DNA of 64,000 nt from NCBI RefSeq assembly GCF_014931715.1, contig NZ_CP063164.1, positions 868,001 through 932,000 on the forward strand, read 5' to 3'. Of this stretch, positions 46,218-54,764 are shown piece by piece. Within the stretch, counting starts at the first letter, position 1; the number at the start of each line of letters is the position of its first letter. The notes under the pieces were generated by a model, which did not search any database, had not been told where the DNA came from, and saw only the letters and a list, made by a program, of their open reading frames with translations. The position numbers and the translations under genes were made by a program. The DNA comes from Sulfurovum indicum (GTDB lineage Bacteria > Campylobacterota > Campylobacteria > Campylobacterales > Sulfurovaceae).

Positions 46218-46241
46218 AGTGGCTTACTGTGCTACTTTATC
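46213..46241. terminator. Hairpin between convergent genes
   Basis: GATAAAGT (46213) and ACTTTATC (46234), 13-base loop, at the end of the Cys-rich gene and within the msrA 3' end. Confidence 0.45.
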
Positions 46242-46754
46242 ACTGAACTTCTCCATCAGTTTTGCGATCTTTGGCGGAATGACAGCATTACAGTAACCCT
46301 GCATGGGATTCTGTCTGTAATAGTCCTGATGATAATCCTCTGCCGGATAGTAGTTTCTTAGCGGTTCCAATGTAGTGACAATGGGATCGCTGTAGTCTCT
46401 CTGTGCACGCTCAATGGCACGTTTTGCCGTTTCAAGTTCTTCGTCATTTTTATAGCAGATACATGAGCGGTACTGTGTACCCACATCAGCACCCTGACGG
46501 TTGAGTGTTGTCGGGTTATGGGTGGTAAAGAAGATATCCAAAAGGGTGTCAAGGTCAATTGTCTCATCATCATAGGTGATCTTGATAACTTCTGCATACC
46601 CACTGTCGCCTCCGCAAATCATACGGTAATTGGGGTCTGGTATATCGCCGTTGGCATAACCACTCTCTACATCACTGACCCCTTTAAGCCTTTCAAATAC
46701 CGCTTCGGTACACCAGAAACATCCGCCGCCGACTATAAGTTCTTTTGTTGCCAT
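46224..46754 (-). CDS. msrA: Peptide-methionine (S)-S-oxide reductase
   Basis: Repairs methionine-S-sulfoxide. 176 residues with the active-site GGGCFWCTEAVF near the N-terminus, VESGYANGDIPDPNYRMIC (usually GYAGG) and the GTQYRSCICY block. Monocistronic; divergent to trxC, a likely electron donor family. Confidence 0.96.
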   Translation of the reverse strand: MATKELIVGGGCFWCTEAVFERLKGVSDVESGYANGDIPDPNYRMICGGDSGYAEVIKITYDDETIDLDTLLDIFFTTHNPTTLNRQGADVGTQYRSCICYKNDEELETAKRAIERAQRDYSDPIVTTLEPLRNYYPAEDYHQDYYRQNPMQGYCNAVIPPKIAKLMEKFSDKVAQ

Positions 46755-46924: not shown

Positions 46925-47353
46925 ATGACTGTAAATGTTGTATGTCCACACTGTTTGAAGATAAACCGCATTCCAAAGAAGGATTCCTATAGCAAGGCAA
47001 ATTGCGGCGCATGCAAGAACTCACTGCTGGAAAGCAAACCTGTTGAAGTCGGTGTTTCACAGTTTGGTACGTTCATAGCGAACTCTGATCTGCCTGTTGT
47101 AGTGGACTTCTGGGCACCATGGTGCGGTCCATGCCGTATGATGGCACCGGCTTTCGAAGATGCTGCAAATGCTTTACCGTTGAAAGCACAGTTTTTAAAG
47201 GTCAATACCGAAGAGCAGCCGCAGTTGGGGAGTCAGTATGGTATACGCAGTATCCCGACAATGGTGCTCTTCAAGGGAGGCAAAGAGGTTGACAGGGTGA
47301 GCGGTGCACTCAGTGCAGAGCAGATAAAACAGTGGGTAGCACGATATATTTAG
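46925..47353 (+). CDS. trxC: Thioredoxin 2 (zinc-binding TrxC)
   Basis: 142 residues. N-terminal zinc motif CPHC...CGAC (residues 9-32) identifies TrxC rather than TrxA; the thioredoxin domain has FWAPWCGPCRMM and the cis-Pro SIPTMVLF. TrxC is a disulfide reductase linked to oxidative stress, and msrA next door may use it. SD GGAGG before ATG 46925. Confidence 0.94.
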   Translation: MTVNVVCPHCLKINRIPKKDSYSKANCGACKNSLLESKPVEVGVSQFGTFIANSDLPVVVDFWAPWCGPCRMMAPAFEDAANALPLKAQFLKVNTEEQPQLGSQYGIRSIPTMVLFKGGKEVDRVSGALSAEQIKQWVARYI

Positions 47354-47467: not shown

Positions 47468-48139
47468 ATGAGCAAGATCTTATTGTTGGAAGATGATACC
47501 AACCTTAATGAAACAGTAACAGAGTTTCTGGAAAACAAGGGTCATAAAGTTGTCTCTGTGTTTGACGGGTATGAAGCGCAGGAGAAGCTTTATGAGAGCA
47601 AGTATGACCTGTTGCTGCTTGACATCAATGTACCGGGCATAAACGGATTGGAGCTTCTTAAAGAGAGTCGGGGAGAGGGAGTGGTCGCACCTGCGATATA
47701 TATTACTTCTATGGACAGTGTCGATGATCTTGAACGGGGATTTGAAAGCGGATGTGACGATTATATCCGTAAACCTTTTGCACTGAAAGAACTGCTTATC
47801 CGTGTAGAAACACTGCTTAAGCGTGGTTTCTACCATGGATCAAAAGAGCTGCTTCCAATTGCTGAGAATATTGAATATGATATAAAAACAGGAGAAGTGG
47901 TCATTGACGGAGAACATCTGGCGCTGGGGAACAAAGAGTCAAAGCTTCTGAAACTCTTTATGACAACAGAAGGTGAAGTACTCTCGCATGAACGTATCTA
48001 TGAATATCTGTGGAATTATGATGAGGAACCCAGTGATTCGGCACTGCGAACCTATATCAAGAACCTTCGTAAACTTATAGGGAAGGAAAGAATTGTCAGC
48101 ATTAAAAAACAGGGCTACAAATTCGTTACTGAGAAGTGA
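47468..48139 (+). CDS. OmpR-family response regulator
   Basis: 223 residues: receiver with KILLLEDDTNLNETV and phospho-acceptor Asp in LLLDINVPG, Lys in YIRKPFALKELLIR; C-terminal winged helix ending RTYIKNLRKLIG and KKQGYKFV. Overlaps the sensor kinase gene by 47 bases. Target genes unknown; the cytochrome-like genes behind are candidates. Confidence 0.93.
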   Translation: MSKILLLEDDTNLNETVTEFLENKGHKVVSVFDGYEAQEKLYESKYDLLLLDINVPGINGLELLKESRGEGVVAPAIYITSMDSVDDLERGFESGCDDYIRKPFALKELLIRVETLLKRGFYHGSKELLPIAENIEYDIKTGEVVIDGEHLALGNKESKLLKLFMTTEGEVLSHERIYEYLWNYDEEPSDSALRTYIKNLRKLIGKERIVSIKKQGYKFVTEK

Positions 48140-49280
48140 AAAGAAGTCTCTCCGCCGTTTTCTGACACTTTATGTAGCGATGGTGGTCTTTGGGATCACA
48201 CTGCTTTCACTCTATTACTATGAAAGCCAACGTCAGCTGATGCTCTCCAACAAGCGTGCCGAACTGGCTCAGTATGCCTACATACAGACAAAACGTCTTA
48301 AAGTGCTTCATCACTTTTTCCCCGAGAGAAGAGAGTACCCTCGTGATCCCCGTTTCACTTCTGCTATCTACGATATCGAGTTCAATAGAATATTCTCATT
48401 GAATCATCTTGAACGAGTGAATTTCGATGAAGAGATCTATGTCGAACATGGATATATTCATTTTGTGAAAGGACTTGATACATACTACCTGGGAACACGA
48501 TATCTTGTGATAGAGATCAAAGATGACGGTCTGTGGCTCAAGCAGATATGGAAAGATATCATTATATACGGTACAGCTGCTTTTATACTTTTTATGCTTT
48601 TTGGTCTCTATTTGGCAAAACTTTTTTTGAAACCGATGAGAGACTCCATTATACTGCTTGACCGCTTTATCAAAGATACTACACATGAACTCAATACGCC
48701 GCTTTCGGCTATATTGGCGAATATTGAGATGATGGATACCGGTGTCATGGTAGAAAAAAACAGGAGAAAGCTGGAACGTATCAATATTGCAGCAAAGACG
48801 GTCTCAACACTTTACAAGGACCTTACCTATCTGACACTTGAACAGGAAAAAGAGAATGAAGATGAGATGCTGAGCCTTAAAGAGATCATTCGGGACAGAG
48901 TAGAGTACTTTGATGTCCTGGCACGCTCAAAACAGATTACTTTCAAGCTTTCTCTGGCAGATACAACGATTAAGATGGACAGGCGAAAGTTCGTCAGGGT
49001 TATTGACAATCTTATATCCAACGCTATTAAATATAACAAAAGAAATGGTGAGATAAGTATCATTTTAGAGAAGAATAAACTCATGATTGCAGATACAGGG
49101 ATTGGCATCTCCAAGGAGAAGATCCCGTTTATGTTTGACCGGTATCTACGTTTCAACAGCAGCGAAGGAGGTTTCGGTATAGGATTGAGTATCGTTAAAA
49201 AGATACTGGATGAATATCATATCACTATAGAAGTGATATCAAAGGAAGGAGAAGGAACAAGAATGGTACTTGTATGGTAG
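48093..49280 (+). CDS. Sensor histidine kinase
   Basis: 395 residues; two helices (TLYVAMVVFGITLLSLYY; IIIYGTAAFILFMLFGLYLA) flank a short periplasmic sensor of about 110 residues. Phospho-acceptor His in DTTHELNTPLSAILANI, N box NLISNAIKYN, G1 IADTGIGI, F box FMFDRYLRF, G2 GGFGIGLSIV. No clear HAMP. Start at TTG 48093, preceded by AAGGAAAG and inside the response-regulator gene; the next ATG would remove the first helix. Confidence 0.88.
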   Translation: MSALKNRATNSLLRSEKKSLRRFLTLYVAMVVFGITLLSLYYYESQRQLMLSNKRAELAQYAYIQTKRLKVLHHFFPERREYPRDPRFTSAIYDIEFNRIFSLNHLERVNFDEEIYVEHGYIHFVKGLDTYYLGTRYLVIEIKDDGLWLKQIWKDIIIYGTAAFILFMLFGLYLAKLFLKPMRDSIILLDRFIKDTTHELNTPLSAILANIEMMDTGVMVEKNRRKLERINIAAKTVSTLYKDLTYLTLEQEKENEDEMLSLKEIIRDRVEYFDVLARSKQITFKLSLADTTIKMDRRKFVRVIDNLISNAIKYNKRNGEISIILEKNKLMIADTGIGISKEKIPFMFDRYLRFNSSEGGFGIGLSIVKKILDEYHITIEVISKEGEGTRMVLVW

Positions 49281-49289
49281 GACCCGTTA

Positions 49290-49353
49290 GGAAGACGTGA
49301 ACTGTTTTCCGTTGGCAGGGCGGAACCATGCAAGTCAGGATAGTAAGCCAATG
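49290..49353 (+). ncRNA. Candidate structured RNA between kinase and cytochrome genes
   Basis: GGAAGAC/GTTTTCC (49290-49310, 7-base loop) is followed by CGTTGGC (49310) pairing GCCAATG (49347-49353). No tRNA T-loop or riboswitch consensus recognised; could be a terminator or leader. Confidence 0.25.
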
Positions 49354-49393
49354 AGATGGAAATTTTAAACATAAAATAAACAGGATATATTGT

Positions 49394-49729
49394 ATGAAGC
49401 ACAAACTTATATTTTTACTGGTCATCTTTTCCAATATGGTATCTGCAGCGGATATCTATGAAAGACGCTGTGTTCCCTGCCATAAAGACCTTCCAACTTC
49501 CCTGCAGCAGATGTTTAAAAAATATCTGCTGATCTACAGCAGTGAAAAGTTCGTAAAGGCAGGGCTGAAACACTATTTGAGAAATCCGTCAAAAAGTATT
49601 TCTGTCATGTCGGAACTTTTTATAGATACCTACGGGATCAAAAAGAAGACAATATTGTCCCCGAAAGAGTTGGATGAAGCGATTGATATTTATTGGGAAA
49701 AATTTAAGGTTTTTGATAAGTTGAAGTAG
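49394..49729 (+). CDS. Small monohaem c-type cytochrome-like protein
   Basis: 111 residues: signal peptide (KLIFLLVIFSNMVSA), haem site CVPCH at 26-30. The mature part is short and mostly helical without an obvious Met ligand, except possibly SVMSEL near 70. Periplasmic electron carrier or sensor; first of four small exported proteins behind the two-component system. Confidence 0.7.
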   Translation: MKHKLIFLLVIFSNMVSAADIYERRCVPCHKDLPTSLQQMFKKYLLIYSSEKFVKAGLKHYLRNPSKSISVMSELFIDTYGIKKKTILSPKELDEAIDIYWEKFKVFDKLK

Positions 49730-49730
49730 C

Positions 49731-49736
49731 TATAAT
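49731..49736 (+). promoter_or_regulatory. -10 box of the 49793 gene
   Basis: AGCTATAATATT just behind the upstream stop. Confidence 0.55.
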
Positions 49737-49792
49737 ATTTCAAGGTTGCATAGTTTGCAATAACTAAAAGTTATACTTGAAAGGTTCATTAA

Positions 49793-50113
49793 ATGAAAAA
49801 ACTGCTTACAATTTTGGCTCTCTCGTTTTTTGTAACGGCTACTATGCCGACAACTGTCATGGCAGGTGCAAAAAAAGGACAAAAGATCTTTAAGAAAAAA
49901 TTCCGTAAAAAATGTGGATTCTCAGGTGTACGATTTGCAAGACACCATACACAGTCTGAGTGGGAAGATATCTATGACGAGGGAAAATTCAAAGAGGAAG
50001 CCAAAAAGATCTGTCCGAGGCTGAAAGTGGATAAGATCAAAAAGTCATGGTGGAAGCACGTTTATGAGTTCTCATATAAATATGCGTCGGATGGTGTTGT
50101 CCCCAAGTGTTAA
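49793..50113 (+). CDS. Haem-less cytochrome-like periplasmic protein, paralogue 1
   Basis: 106 residues with signal peptide. The start of the mature part looks like a class I cytochrome (KKGQKIFKKKFRKKC), but the haem site is CGFSG instead of CxxCH. Shared with paralogue 2: CGFSG, HTQ.EWE, GKF.EE, ICP, YASD and a C-terminal Cys; three Cys conserved. Function unknown. Confidence 0.8.
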   Translation: MKKLLTILALSFFVTATMPTTVMAGAKKGQKIFKKKFRKKCGFSGVRFARHHTQSEWEDIYDEGKFKEEAKKICPRLKVDKIKKSWWKHVYEFSYKYASDGVVPKC

Positions 50114-50140
50114 ACCTGTTTGATATGAATGTAACTTCTT

Positions 50141-50172
50141 GAAGCAGTTTTAGAGTAACTGCTTCATTTTTC
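50141..50172 (+). terminator. Terminator after paralogue 1
   Basis: GAAGCAGTT, 7-base loop, AACTGCTTC, then ATTTTTCC; a classic intrinsic terminator. Confidence 0.75.
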
Positions 50173-50207
50173 CTAAACTTCTTCACAATCTTTTCACAAT
50201 TTCATGC

Positions 50208-50213
50208 TATGAT
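50208..50213 (+). promoter_or_regulatory. -10 box of paralogue 2
   Basis: TGCTATGATAC, 34 bases before ATG 50247. Confidence 0.5.
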
Positions 50214-50246
50214 ACTTTTGTCTTAAAAAAATTAAAAGGATGAATA

Positions 50247-50561
50247 ATGACAAAAATGACTAAAATTGCAGTAGCTGCACTTCTTGGTATGGCTGTACTC
50301 TCTACAACTGCAACTGCGGATGCAGCAAAAGGTAAAAAGATCTATATGAAAAAATTGAAAGCTGCATGTGGTTTCTCTGGTGCAAAGTTCGCAACCAAAC
50401 ATACACAGGATGAGTGGGAAAAGATCAAAAATGCCGGTAAATTCCAAGAGGAAGTTGCAAAAATATGTCCAGGTGCGAAGCTGAAAGACAAATATGTGAA
50501 TGATGTATATGATTTTGCATACGAGTATGCATCTGATTCAGGTAACGTACCATCTTGCTAA
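50247..50561 (+). CDS. Haem-less cytochrome-like periplasmic protein, paralogue 2
   Basis: 104 residues with signal peptide (TKIAVAALLGMAVLSTTATA). KGKKIYMKKLKAACGFSGAK aligns without gaps with paralogue 1, and the tail DFAYEYASDSGNVPSC matches its YKYASDGVVPKC. No CxxCH. Strong SD AAAGG. Has its own promoter, terminator upstream, and a hairpin after it. The two copies are distinct at DNA level, so the duplication is old. Confidence 0.8.
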   Translation: MTKMTKIAVAALLGMAVLSTTATADAAKGKKIYMKKLKAACGFSGAKFATKHTQDEWEKIKNAGKFQEEVAKICPGAKLKDKYVNDVYDFAYEYASDSGNVPSC

Positions 50562-50564
50562 ACG

Positions 50565-50592
50565 CTTCATGCATCTGTGTATGATGCAGAAG
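50565..50592 (+). terminator. Hairpin after paralogue 2
   Basis: CTTC-A-TGCATC, TGTGTAT, GATGCAGAAG, one bulge; no T-run. Confidence 0.45.
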
Positions 50593-50652
50593 AGAGATTC
50601 GGATACAAGCAGGCGTTGAGGTGGCTCACACCTCTGTTTAAAGGATGCATGT

Positions 50653-50658
50653 TATAAT
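50653..50658 (+). promoter_or_regulatory. -10 box of the cytochrome c553 gene
   Basis: GTTATAATTCC, 33 bases before ATG 50691. Confidence 0.6.
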
Positions 50659-50690
50659 TCCACGCAATTTCAACACAAAAAGGAAATATT

Positions 50691-50987
50691 ATGAAAAAAA
50701 TCGCAATCGCAATGTTATTTGCAGGTTCTACACTACTTATGGCTGACGGTGCTGCACTTTATGCTAAGTGTGCAGGTTGTCACGGACAAAACGGAGAAAA
50801 ATCTGCTCTTGGAAAATCTGCGATCATCAAAGGTCAGGATGTTGCAAAAACTGTTGAGCAGCTTCACGGTTACAAAGCAGGTACACTTAACCAACACGGT
50901 ATGGGTGCATTGATGAAAGGTCAGGTTGCTTCTATGAGCGATGATGATATCAAAGCAGTAGCTGAGCATATCGCTGGTCTTAAGTAA
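50691..50987 (+). CDS. Cytochrome c553-like, class I
   Basis: 98 residues: signal peptide ending ADGAA, haem CAGCH at 27-31, Met ligand candidate in MGALMKGQVASMSDDD, and C-terminal helix DIKAVAEHIAGLK. Periplasmic electron donor to terminal oxidases in related bacteria. Matured by CcsBA. Confidence 0.93.
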   Translation: MKKIAIAMLFAGSTLLMADGAALYAKCAGCHGQNGEKSALGKSAIIKGQDVAKTVEQLHGYKAGTLNQHGMGALMKGQVASMSDDDIKAVAEHIAGLK

Positions 50988-50994
50988 GACCTCT

Positions 50995-51020
50995 GTTCAA
51001 AAGCCTTTTGGCTTTTGAAC
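50995..51020 (+). terminator. Terminator after cytochrome c553
   Basis: GTTCAAAAGCC, TTTT, GGCTTTTGAAC: perfect 11-bp stem, followed by a pyrimidine-rich run. Confidence 0.75.
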
Positions 51021-51153
51021 CCTTCTGTCCACTCTTAGTTTCTTCTTTTTTTATTTCATCTGCTTTTTAGCTTAAATAACGTATATTTTTTCCCAATTTT
51101 TACAGGCCGGCTTATCTTTTGTGTGAAATACTTTATATTGTGACGACAAATGA

Positions 51154-51531
51154 CTAATTACTGCCGCACTTTCCCGCTTCACACTTCATGACGGATGTCT
51201 CTTTGACGGGTACTTTTGTTGTATTATCCGTTGAACACTTGGTTGTTAAACGTCCTGTTCTGCTGTCTCTTACACAATCATACAGTATTTTTGTCGAACT
51301 TGCTTTGAGTACACAGTCTCGTCTGCTGTCATCTTCCCGCATCTGCTCCAGAATATTCATCTTCTTTTTGATCAGTACAGCAGAACCGTCTACCATACTC
51401 GCACCGCATTTTCCCGGACCACACTTCATACCGCCTTCTGTAAGTGATTCGGTCTTTTCTTTATCGCTGCAGCCTGATATTAGAAGTACAGCTGCTAATA
51501 TCAGGAGTTTTGTGATCATACGCGAAAACAT
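51154..51531 (-). CDS. Lipoprotein with two MKCxxGKCG motifs
   Basis: 125 residues. Signal peptide and lipobox LLISGC (lipidated Cys 21). Mature part has GGMKCGPGKCGAS near 35 and VMKCEAGKCGSN at the very end, plus three further Cys (DCVL, YDCV, KCST). Likely Cu(I) or Ag(I) binder at a membrane face, last gene of the efflux operon (13 bases behind cusA). No database name known to me. SD AAGGAG before ATG 51531. Confidence 0.75.
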   Translation of the reverse strand: MFSRMITKLLILAAVLLISGCSDKEKTESLTEGGMKCGPGKCGASMVDGSAVLIKKKMNILEQMREDDSRRDCVLKASSTKILYDCVRDSRTGRLTTKCSTDNTTKVPVKETSVMKCEAGKCGSN

Positions 51532-51544
51532 TTCTTTCTCCTTT

Positions 51545-54500
51545 TTAATATTTAATTTTTAATTTTCTTTTTTCATACATCATATAGAAAATAGGTATCA
51601 AAAGCAAGCTTAATACGGCTGAACTGACAACTCCTCCAATCATAGGAGCAGCTATACGCTGCATGACTTCCGATCCGACACCATGGGTATACATAATAGG
51701 AAGAAGTCCTGCCAAAATAGCAAAGACTGTCATGAGTTTTGGGCGTACCCTCTGTACAGCTCCTTCGTAGATGGCTGCATCGAGTGCAGCAACATCAAAT
51801 TTATCACCAAGCCTCTCTTGTGCCTCGTCCACAGCCTCTTTGAGATAAACGATCATGACAATAGCTGTTTCTGCTGCCACACCCAGAAGTGCCAGGAAGC
51901 CGACAATAATGGCAATGCTCATATTGAACTGCAGCATATCGATATAGAAGAGTCCGCCCAGAAGTGCGAAGGGAAGAGTAAAAAAGACGATCAGTGTCGG
52001 TATCATTTCTTTAAGAGCAAAATAGATGAGTACCAGGATCACGAGCAGTACTGTGGGAATGATCCAGATGATCTTTTCCATAGCAGACTCCAGATACTCA
52101 GACTGTCCTGCCCATTCTATATAGTAGCCTGCCGGCAGCTTTATCTTCTCAAGAACTTTCAGTGCCTCCTCTTTATAGGTGACCACACTCATTCCCAGTG
52201 TCGGCGTGATATAGATGAAGGTAACCGGTGTAGCCATCTCACTCTTGATGACCGAAGCACTCTGTCTGTACTCTATTTTTGCAAAAGTAGATAAGGGAAC
52301 GAAGCCCAGTGGTGTCTTAACCTGGATGTTGCGTATCGCATCGAGGTTTCTGCGTTCCTCTTCTTTGAAACGCAAAGTAATAGGGTAGCGTTCCAGACCT
52401 TTGTACATAGTAGAGATCTGTTTCCCCCCTATGGCTGTGGAGGTATATTCGAGTATCAGATCTTTACTGATACCATAGTGTTTGAGAGCTTCAGTATCAA
52501 TGTTGATGTCAATGAAATAGCCGGCACTGGCCTGATCAGAGATGACCGACTGTGTACTTTTGAGATTGCGTAGTGCATTTTCTATCTGCTGTGCGATCTC
52601 CTGTAAGCCCTTTGCATCTTTACCGTAAAGTTTAATACCAAGCGGGGTACGGATACCTGAGAGAAGCATATCTATACGCCCCCTGATGGGGTAGGTCCAT
52701 GAGTTCACCAGACCGGGTATCTGCAGAGCTTTGTCCATTTCAGCCATCAGTTTTTCCGTTGTCATCCCTTCTCTCCATTCACTTTTTGGTTTGAAGGTGA
52801 TGATGGTTTCTATCATCCCAAGCGGTGCAGGGTCTGTAGCTGTATCGGCACGTCCGCCTTTGCCAAATACTGTCTCCACTTCAGGAAAACTTTTAAGTAT
52901 GGCATCTGTTTTCTGCGTCAATGCTTTGCTCTGGTCCACAGAGATACCGTAAGGTGTGACAGGCATATACATGACTGTCTGTTCATCCAGCATCGGCATG
53001 AACTCCCAGTTAAGTCCTTTGTAGAGAGGTACAGCCAAAACAAGGAGTGCGGCAGCTGCGGCAATGACTAGATATCTGAGCTTTAAACCCCAAACCAAAA
53101 GAGGAGTGTAGAGCCAGATGAAAAAACGATTGAGCGGGTTTTTTGATTCAGGGATGATTCTGCCCTTGACGAAATAGATCATTAAAACCGGTACCAGAGT
53201 TACAGCAAGCAATGCGCCGGCTGTCATCGCAAAAGTTTTGGTAAAAGCCAAAGGTGTGAAGAGTAGTCCCTCCTGACCGGAAAGTGCAAAAATAGGCAGA
53301 AAAGAAACAACCACGAGAGCAAGTGCAAAGAAGATGGGACGACCAACCACCTGCGATGCCTGCACAATGGCAGAGATACGTTCTTTGTTATTCAGGTTGC
53401 GTCCAAGTTTTCCCTCTTCTTTATGTATGACTTTATGCGCATTCTCGATCATGACGATGGAAGCATCAACCATAGCCCCTATGGCAATAGCGATTCCTCC
53501 GAGGCTCATAATATTGGATCCGATACCAAAGAGTTTCATAAGAAGAAAGGTAAGCCCGATGGTCAACGGTAATACAATAAGTACAATAAGAGAAGAGCGA
53601 AGATGCATCAGAAAAAGCCCGATGATGATTACAACAATGATACTCTCTTCGATCAGCGTACGTTTAAGGGTATTGACTGCTTTGGAAATAAGATCGGAGC
53701 GATCGTAGGTGGTAATGACATCCACCCCTTCAACTTTAAGCTCTTCCATCTTGTTTTTGATACGCTCCAGGGCACTGTAGACATCCTCGCCGTAGCGCAG
53801 CATTACGATACCGCCGACCACTTCTCCTTCACCGTTAAGGTCAGCCATACCACGGCGTGCAGCAGGTATTTTCTCTACCTGTCCGACCTGTGCAACAGTG
53901 ATGGGGATACCGTTCCTGGAAGCAATGACAAGATTGCGTATCTCATCAAGGTCTTTGATATAGCCTTTTGCCTGTACCATCCATTCATAGCCGTTCTGTA
54001 TAACGATCCGTCCACCGGTATCGTTGTTGTTCTTTTTGAGTGTACGTGCTACATCTTTGATGGAGAGGTTGTAGCGTATAAGTGCATCATTGTTCACTGT
54101 TACCTGGTAGGTTGGTATGAACCCGCCGATGGTCGCCACCTCCGAAACACCGTCTACACCCATCAGGGCATACTTGTAGTAATAGTCCTGCAGCGTACGC
54201 AGTTCATCAAGTGTTTTGGTCTGTGAAACCAGTGCATATTCATATGCCCAGCCTACACCGGAAGCATCAGGTCCCAGACTCACCTCCATTGTATCAGGCA
54301 GTTTACTCTGGATGGAAGCCAGCTGTTCGAGAACACGGGAACGTGCCCAGTAAAGGTCAGTCCCCTCTTTGAAGATAATATAGATCAGAGCATTTTCATA
54401 GGTAGAAAAGCCCCGTACAGTCTCAATATTGGAAATAGCAAGGAACTGTGATACCAGCGGATAGGTTCCCTGGTCCTCAATGATCTCAGGACTCTGCCCC

Positions 54501-54661
54501 TTCCATGTTACCTGCACGATCACCTGTGGCGGTGAGAGATCCGGCAGGGCATCAAGCGGAGTATTTCGCATGGACCATACTGATCCCAGAATTATAAAGA
54601 GGGTGGCCATCAGGACAAGAAAACGGTTCTTGACACTAAAGGCTATCAGTTTTTCTATCAT
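51545..54661 (-). CDS. cusA: CusA-like Cu(I)/Ag(I) RND efflux pump
   Basis: Proton-driven inner membrane transporter of heavy metals. 1038 residues starting MIEKLIAFSVKNRFLV (ATG 54661, SD GAAAGG); a longer in-frame start at 54721 is unlikely. Family blocks: TPLDALPDLSPPQVIVQV, YPLVSQFLA, proton relay helix IGAMVDASIVMIENAHK, typical of the monovalent CusA type, and 12 membrane helices. Adaptor and outer-membrane genes precede it. Confidence 0.95.
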   Translation of the reverse strand: MIEKLIAFSVKNRFLVLMATLFIILGSVWSMRNTPLDALPDLSPPQVIVQVTWKGQSPEIIEDQGTYPLVSQFLAISNIETVRGFSTYENALIYIIFKEGTDLYWARSRVLEQLASIQSKLPDTMEVSLGPDASGVGWAYEYALVSQTKTLDELRTLQDYYYKYALMGVDGVSEVATIGGFIPTYQVTVNNDALIRYNLSIKDVARTLKKNNNDTGGRIVIQNGYEWMVQAKGYIKDLDEIRNLVIASRNGIPITVAQVGQVEKIPAARRGMADLNGEGEVVGGIVMLRYGEDVYSALERIKNKMEELKVEGVDVITTYDRSDLISKAVNTLKRTLIEESIIVVIIIGLFLMHLRSSLIVLIVLPLTIGLTFLLMKLFGIGSNIMSLGGIAIAIGAMVDASIVMIENAHKVIHKEEGKLGRNLNNKERISAIVQASQVVGRPIFFALALVVVSFLPIFALSGQEGLLFTPLAFTKTFAMTAGALLAVTLVPVLMIYFVKGRIIPESKNPLNRFFIWLYTPLLVWGLKLRYLVIAAAAALLVLAVPLYKGLNWEFMPMLDEQTVMYMPVTPYGISVDQSKALTQKTDAILKSFPEVETVFGKGGRADTATDPAPLGMIETIITFKPKSEWREGMTTEKLMAEMDKALQIPGLVNSWTYPIRGRIDMLLSGIRTPLGIKLYGKDAKGLQEIAQQIENALRNLKSTQSVISDQASAGYFIDINIDTEALKHYGISKDLILEYTSTAIGGKQISTMYKGLERYPITLRFKEEERRNLDAIRNIQVKTPLGFVPLSTFAKIEYRQSASVIKSEMATPVTFIYITPTLGMSVVTYKEEALKVLEKIKLPAGYYIEWAGQSEYLESAMEKIIWIIPTVLLVILVLIYFALKEMIPTLIVFFTLPFALLGGLFYIDMLQFNMSIAIIVGFLALLGVAAETAIVMIVYLKEAVDEAQERLGDKFDVAALDAAIYEGAVQRVRPKLMTVFAILAGLLPIMYTHGVGSEVMQRIAAPMIGGVVSSAVLSLLLIPIFYMMYEKRKLKIKY

Positions 54662-54764
54662 AATGTCAAACCTTTCGTTATATTGTGAGAAGATGAATCT
54701 ACCTGCAGCTGAAGCGGACACAATGTATCGACGTTGTCAAATAATATATCTGTGATACTGTACA

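Follow-up and report, generated by a model that had tools for sequence, protein, structure and literature searches.

Among the described sulfur carriers, SoxY is a periplasmic protein with a C-terminal cysteine, DsrC has a near-terminal reactive cysteine, and Sud delivers sulfur to the periplasmic polysulfide reductase. Members of the phylum Campylobacterota are major sulfur cyclers at vents, and their activation and catabolism of zero-valent sulfur are described in one published report (PMC10045233) as not clearly understood. The same report cites psrA1B1CDE of a Sulfurimonas isolate, which includes psrD and psrE. A Thiovulum operon, as mentioned in PMC9938260, comprises genes for a rhodanese, molybdoenzyme subunits, and one protein "related to cytochrome c"; this last gene may belong to the family that is described here. 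With regard to regulation, two papers on the Campylobacter DccRS two-component system (PMC9449129, PMC7118207) report a regulon of periplasmic and membrane proteins and growth phase as the trigger.

In this study we analyzed a 64,000-nucleotide stretch of the 2.21 Mb genome of Sulfurovum indicum (contig NZ_CP063164.1, positions 868,001 to 932,000; hereafter the window), in which an initial annotation had singled out a tandem pair of cytochrome-like proteins without a haem motif. Among the matches listed from the open-licence PMC subset, no paper on this family was recognised, and a search of the same subset for DUF3373 together with polysulfide found none.

Organization of the locus

Two tandem exported paralogues of cytochrome-like length and without CxxCH (P0001 and P0002) are encoded in the window and, as the initial annotation had described, lie between two CxxCH proteins (CVPCH and CAGCH) and behind genes for a response regulator and a kinase. 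The features of this region are as follows.

46925..47353, + strand: thioredoxin-2-type protein, PF00085 over cut-off; 5' of the regulator; recurs in the cassette
47468..48139, + strand: OmpR-type response regulator (PF00072 and PF00486)
48093..49280, + strand: sensor histidine kinase (HisKA and HATPase_c); start codon uncertain
49394..49729, + strand: P0003, 111-aa exported CxxCH protein (CVPCH); homologues recur in the same cassette
49793..50113, + strand: P0001, A-type paralogue, 106 aa, export-signal-like start (signal peptide)
50140..50166, + strand: terminator-like hairpin and T run, between P0001 and P0002
50182..50197, + strand: direct repeat TTCAC-N6-TTCAC, 5' of P0002, followed by a TATGAT-like -10
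50247..50561, + strand: P0002, B-type paralogue, 104 aa, export-signal-like start (signal peptide)
50691..50987, + strand: P0004, 98-aa monohaem cytochrome c (CAGCH); homologues recur in the same cassette

P0001 and P0002 share approximately 50% identity. The cysteines of P0001 lie in KKCGFSG, ICP, and a C-terminal PKC (tail DGVVPKC), those of P0002 in AACGFSG, ICP, and a C-terminal DSGNVPSC; mature P0001, with the start of the mature part assumed, has a pI of 9.8. P0004 matches PF00034 at 37.8 bits (cut-off 21.3), P0003 has no Pfam match over cut-off, and the thioredoxin-2-type protein shows a Zn-ribbon match that is below cut-off. The S. indicum genome also carries a third three-Cys paralogue and one haem-motif relative.

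On the opposite strand, a peptide methionine sulfoxide reductase gene (46224-46754; PF01625) lies 5' of the thioredoxin and two-component genes and recurs in 3 of the 42 loci that were viewed first (i.e., the window, L120, and L122-L161). Also on the minus strand are a small ORF (51154-51531) that resembles a Cys-rich lipoprotein and contains the motif MKCxxGKCG several times and, beside it, a gene that by eye resembles a heavy-metal RND efflux pump (51545-54721); this pair recurs in 4 of the 42 loci (clusters 17-19), all of the Sulfurovum type.

Family extent and conserved cysteines

Neither P0001 nor P0002 matched any Pfam or NCBIfam model above cut-off. P0002 had homologues in 48 of the 60 relatives searched, and the family was present in 160 of 397 genomes searched (phylum Campylobacterota). 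Most of the close relatives of P0002 that carry a name come from Sulfurovum records. A scan of GTDB r220 (one genome per species), which detects close relatives only, yielded 29 loci, 28 of them labelled Sulfurovum, Campylobacterales, or other epsilonproteobacterial; the 29th (L056) is a 4.3-kb "Lutibacter" contig with two Sulfurovum-type family genes, and is probably mis-binned. A search of a plasmid collection with P0002 gave no match.

Conservation of three cysteines (in CGFSG, in ICP, and at the C-terminus) had been proposed from the window alone, and all three were invariant in 118/118 unique close homologues. After deduplication, 39 of 49 loci from near relatives retained the tandem pair, which is thus, given this retention and the invariant cysteines, not a chance arrangement. 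Further invariant columns in the alignment of the 118 sequences are G39, K45, G56, W68, F107, and P119. CGFSG is not invariant as a whole; its Cys and its final Gly are (118/118), whereas the second residue is Gly in 105 and Arg in 10 of the 118 sequences.

Descent from cytochrome c

Haem-bearing relatives, which have the same DSGNVPxC-type tail and carry CxxCH at the site, surfaced by searching weakly matching genomes. CxxCH and a later second His are invariant in a 15-member set of these haem forms, and this His would be the distal axial ligand of the haem-bearing sister group. PF13442 matches 13/15 members of the set at E <= 0.01; among five haem members scanned against Pfam cut-offs, one exceeds those of both PF13442 and PF00034, two exceed one of them, and two exceed neither. 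Comparison of the haem-free with the haem alignment by hhalign gave a probability of 99.7 (E 5.6e-27). When a joint profile was searched against PDB sequences, only two chains fell below E 0.01, both cytochrome c-552 (7.8e-4 and 2.2e-3); at E 0.04 and above, c-type cytochromes were mixed with unrelated chains, including AP-2. The origin from cytochrome c with loss of haem that the initial annotation had suggested is thus borne out by a CxxCH sister group with the same tail, by the hhalign result, and by the three of five haem members that pass a Pfam cut-off, and on these sequence comparisons we regard descent of the P0001/P0002 family from cytochrome c as nearly certain.

An ungapped reading sets KKCKxCHGNG of the haem forms against KKLKAACGFSG of the haem-free forms, such that Cys, Cys, and His of the haem motif correspond mostly to L/F/M, A/K/P, and Cys, respectively; placement of the CGFSG Cys shifts by one residue depending on the alignment, with mafft putting it at the second haem Cys. 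In a tree of 90 of the 234 unique sequences (thinned at 70% identity, trait columns removed), the haem forms were located on one side of a branch with moderate support (90/93), and the three-Cys forms were one group (100/96). State changes on this tree, which is unrooted and was built from few columns with the bootstrap unsettled, numbered two, the minimum possible, as compared to a mean of 35.5 after shuffling. The simplest reading would be one loss of haem followed by one gain of the core Cys pair, although this direction is an inference, as the tree has no outgroup root; the opposite direction, gain of a haem motif, is proposed for another domain in PMC12889525. The family appears to record, with intermediates, the shedding of haem while the protein body stays.

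Structure predictions were consistent with this descent. AlphaFold models of full P0002 (A1; pLDDT 79.2) and of mature P0002 with a 72-row alignment (A3; pLDDT 88.9) are both all-helical, with a less certain tail. Because neither had a Foldseek/PDB match at E <= 0.001, we do not claim the fold from structure alone; c-type entries were 12 of 14 (A1) and 3 of 10 (A3) Foldseek matches, all weak (E >= 1.6), and all listed rows of second-look alignments (26 for A1, 17 for A3) were c-type cytochromes or proteins with c-type domains, with a best Z of only 5.0. That other families are missing from these lists does not count against them. The models thus agree weakly with the sequence result and would not stand alone.

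A core Cys pair in place of the haem motif, and a conserved tail Cys

Scoring of Cys and His at aligned columns of the 234 unique sequences distinguished three states: 58 sequences carry CxxCH, 158 carry a core Cys pair, and 18 have neither the haem motif nor the core Cys. The tail Cys is kept in 228/234, accompanying the core pair in 155 sequences and CxxCH in 57 and occurring by itself in 16; the core pair alone was found in three sequences, CxxCH alone in one, and none of these features at aligned columns in two, one of which ends in PAGC, so that its tail Cys may be misaligned. Among the 176 haem-free sequences, the two core Cys are either both present (158) or both absent (18), with no mixed case, a pattern that supports a putative disulfide at the core rather than haem; the initial annotation had suggested disulfide or metal chemistry for the conserved Cys. 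CxxCH within the same subfamily, which that annotation had named as evidence to the contrary, occurs in 0/158 three-Cys sequences, and these form the single group (100/96) noted above.

Exactly three Cys are present in 154/158 three-Cys forms and, with two of them inside CxxCH, in 52/58 haem forms, while among the 18 forms without the core pair, eight have exactly one Cys and nine have two or three; judged by these numbers, most forms would offer the tail Cys no free partner within its own chain. Of the 155 three-Cys forms with a tail Cys, 153 end with this residue. The tail Cys is absent from members L099, L100, and L110, of which the haem-free L099 and L100 keep the core pair and stop before the tail Cys (DSGAIPA and DSGGVPA, respectively); L144, a longer locus of L100, holds PsrA/PsrB-like genes. 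Further haem-bearing subfamilies (L257-L266) have other Cys tails (DSEHIPTCN, MGVVRSCDGLNCG), and a response-regulator gene is located near the DSEHIPTCN-type members L258-L261.

These states also bear on whether a cofactor is retained. Haem binding through a single Cys or non-covalently might be considered since one core Cys lies near the old site, but CxxCH, which comprises both attachment Cys and the proximal His, is absent; the second His, present in 58/58 haem forms, is found in only 4/176 haem-free sequences; and the remaining Cys is always accompanied by a second core Cys, which is missing from haem forms, making haem retention extremely unlikely. With no CxxCH, and with the second His lost from 172/176 haem-free sequences, a haem-binding pseudocytochrome was considered improbable. 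Binding of copper or zinc by the three Cys and the His of an HTQ motif, which is kept in 113/118 close homologues, would fit the RND-efflux-like gene and Cys-rich lipoprotein that adjoin the pair (51154-54721; by eye), yet the 18 haem-free members without the core pair include 16 that keep the tail Cys, and the efflux neighbour is confined to the 4/42 Sulfurovum-type loci while sulfur markers recur across families; we consider metal binding very unlikely.

Gene neighbourhoods

The neighbourhood set comprised 54 haem-free loci, most of approximately 10 kb and several from one genus or one genome. Marker genes were picked after the 42 loci defined above had been viewed. The PsrA marker is a molybdopterin oxidoreductase with thiosulfate reductase PhsA as the nearest model (473.7 bits, below the cut-off of 694); other markers are NrfD/PsrC (PF03916), a rhodanese with three PF00581 stretches, a DUF3373 protein (PF11853), and an SQR-like flavoprotein, nearest to the type III SQR model, below its cut-off. 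A PsrA/PsrB/PsrC, triple-rhodanese, or SQR-like gene was found near the family gene in 24/54 loci, a DUF3373 gene in 18/54, and one or the other in 35/54; a marker gene was adjacent (<= 300 bases between stop-to-stop frames) and on the same strand in 26/54. Sulfur and DUF3373 markers were absent from haem-form loci (0/8 of approximately 10 kb and 0/19 of 4.6-8.8 kb), and control regions from 20 genomes had markers in 2/40, as weak PsrA/PsrB matches of 23-39%. Since the markers were chosen after the first 42 loci were seen, the 20 loci fetched later represent the fair test; these had sulfur markers in 9/20 and sulfur or DUF3373 markers in 15/20, as compared to 2/40 controls (Fisher p 4e-4 and 3e-8, respectively, values that are optimistic because the genomes are related). 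As related genomes are not independent, these linkage counts, like the repeat counts given below, overstate the number of independent events.

Sulfur markers recur across families. In L178, psrABC, a family gene, and psrA follow each other on one strand. Linked PsrA proteins in L128, L153, L172, L174, and L178 start with SRRxFLQ, which we take to be a Tat export signal and which would place them in the same compartment as the family protein. The window copies P0001 and P0002 have no adjoining psr or sqr; the window cassette (regulator, kinase, and P0004-type cytochrome) was found in 12/54 haem-free loci, with the P0003 type also present in 9 of the 12, and in 7/54 both the sulfur markers and the two-component cassette are missing. 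An ABC-transporter ATPase-like gene (cluster 11) lies near family members in 7/42 loci (L132, L135, L136, L138, L149, L157, and L159).

Same-strand adjacency to psrC, triple-rhodanese, or DUF3373 genes is also what would be expected of a docking, assembly, or maturation partner that carries no sulfur and binds Psr, SQR-like, or DUF3373 proteins through its basic body and tail, as a structural subunit with its tail Cys in a mixed or intermolecular disulfide. The high pI of both window proteins and conservation of the tail in haem and haem-free forms alike, as would be seen for a docking motif, agree with such a role, but the neighbours vary by locus (psr, SQR-like, DUF3373, or the two-component cassette), so that a single invariable complex would not account for every locus, and P0002-type genes are separately regulated (see below); we thus regard this alternative as unlikely.

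Promoters and regulation

The initial annotation had assigned each paralogue its own promoter. For P0002, this is supported by the hairpin that separates it from P0001 (50140-50166) and by a conserved repeat; for P0001, which has no repeat, it is not, and a generic sigma-70 scan of 49150-51150 gave 5 matches against a chance mean of 5.9. The repeat, TTCAC-N6-TTCAC, occurs as a single exact copy in the window (50182-50197), at the -35 region of P0002, as a direct repeat that would correspond to the DccR box of Campylobacter jejuni. Within 160 bp 5' of B-type genes, it was found exactly in 45/133 and within one mismatch in 72/133, many of these genes being from near-related Sulfurovum and hence not independent events, while A-type genes (0/41) and haem genes (0/52) had no copy within one mismatch; 2560 plus-strand background windows had 0 exact copies and 10 within one mismatch, and control regions had 2 exact repeats in 412 kb on both strands. 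An earlier exact count was 45/134 for B-type, 0/41 for A-type, and 0/58 for haem genes; the denominators 133 and 52 exclude short upstream stretches and haem rows unreached by the first profile. The repeat is not enriched in the S. indicum genome (9 exact copies vs 7 for the reversed pattern) or, with one mismatch allowed, in the window (7 vs 5.92), and only its conservation at B-type genes is informative. One promoter element common to P0001 and P0002 was rejected, as the repeat occurs only before B-type genes.

The repeat is also found upstream of S. indicum soxY (PF13501, 48.3 bits, cut-off 28.4; near position 2,130,050; L287), which is flanked by genes that look by eye like soxD and soxZ. 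An exact repeat was present 5' of soxY in 8/26 loci, including that of S. indicum, and one more locus had it at one mismatch (these loci are among L287, L288-L291, L293, L295, L296, and L306); the 26 loci exclude 4 of 30 that gave no SoxY ORF, and two-mismatch repeats (7/26) were not counted as support. The repeat before soxY is thus a candidate regulator site for a sox cluster. Neither this shared promoter element nor the linkage to sulfur-metabolism genes had been noticed in the initial annotation.

P0001, which is on the kinase side of the hairpin and has no repeat, looks like a part of the regulator unit. This position, together with the absence of the repeat from A-type genes and the co-occurrence of regulator, kinase, and P0004-type cytochrome with a family gene in 12/54 loci (9 with the P0003 type), would be compatible with a periplasmic thiol/disulfide sensor for the adjacent kinase, in which the core pair or the tail Cys, through its redox or sulfane-sulfur state, modulates the kinase and induction of P0002 represents feedback. 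This proposal suits P0001 better than P0002, and 39/54 haem-free loci have no kinase marker; we thus consider it a rather improbable account of the family.

Discussion

Loss of haem, retention of the tail Cys, and the frequent location of family genes beside sulfur-respiration genes are the basis on which we propose a sulfur-handling role. A role of the family in periplasmic sulfur metabolism is likely, and the family may represent a new kind of sulfur-handling protein. For the specific proposal that its members are periplasmic sulfane-sulfur carriers or partners, with a core disulfide in place of haem and a free thiol on the tail, we see about an even chance, and for the tail Cys itself carrying sulfur, a chance somewhat short of even. 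The most extended version, in which a cytochrome c became a cofactor-free carrier whose pre-existing C-terminal Cys arm acts throughout Campylobacterota as a periplasmic persulfide shuttle for Psr, SQR-like enzymes, and rhodanese, with the regulator of SoxYZ in control, is put forward tentatively.

According to the sulfur-carrier proposal, the ancestor would be a periplasmic monohaem c-type cytochrome that lost haem once and gained the Cys pair later; the core pair would form a disulfide that takes the place of haem as a structural staple, and the one thiol still free would be that of the tail Cys. This thiol, on a less ordered arm, may carry sulfane sulfur (as persulfide or polysulfide) or dock to enzymes that do. 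Sulfur could be received from SQR-like enzymes or by way of the DUF3373 protein, presumably located in the outer membrane, and passed on to polysulfide reductase or rhodanese, which would make the protein comparable in function to SoxY, DsrC, or Sud. In Sulfurovum, the repeat probably allows the neighbouring two-component system, or one related to it, to induce P0002 along with soxYZ, while P0001, apparently in a transcription unit with the kinase and P0003, may be a regulatory or accessory copy.

Several considerations weigh against sulfur carriage. First, the tail Cys is also present in 57/58 haem forms, whose loci have no sulfur markers, and its role may therefore predate, and differ from, sulfur carriage. 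Second, PMC10045233 reports that the four PsrA of S. indicum lack Tat or signal peptides and are hence cytoplasmic, which would put them beyond the reach of a periplasmic carrier. Third, if the repeat is a DccR box, the trigger of DccRS, growth phase and not sulfur, counts against the sulfur reading. Further points on this side are the position of the window copies away from psr and sqr, the 7/54 haem-free loci with no marker or cassette, the members without a tail Cys, and the absence of similarity to SoxY or rhodanese at E <= 1. This widespread, unnamed protein with a Cys tail, which gene order and promoter connect with psr, SQR-like, rhodanese, and sox genes, provides a candidate that can be tested with a single gene.

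P0001 and P0002 had no Pfam match at E <= 1 to SoxY (PF13501), rhodanese (PF00581), or families such as DsrC and Sud, to which the family is likened as a putative Cys-based carrier. Like SoxY, the family has a C-terminal Cys and a sulfur-oxidiser context, and the TTCAC repeat promoter is common to soxY and P0002-type genes in S. indicum and some relatives, but the SoxY loci show a GGC-type end whereas the family tails are DSGNVPSC and DGVVPKC, and no SoxZ-like partner was identified. With regard to PsrABC operons, family genes are located in or beside psr-like clusters (e.g., L128, L131, L134, L153, L154, L174, L175, and L178), although the family protein differs from PsrA, PsrB, and PsrC; it might correspond to psrD or psrE of the Sulfurimonas isolate. 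To the class I c-type cytochromes (PF00034 Cytochrom_C and PF13442 Cytochrome_CBB3; c6/c552 type), finally, the family is homologous through its haem-bearing members, and it resembles them in length and export signal, but P0001 and P0002 have neither CxxCH nor the second His and have instead a new core Cys pair and a C-terminal Cys tail.
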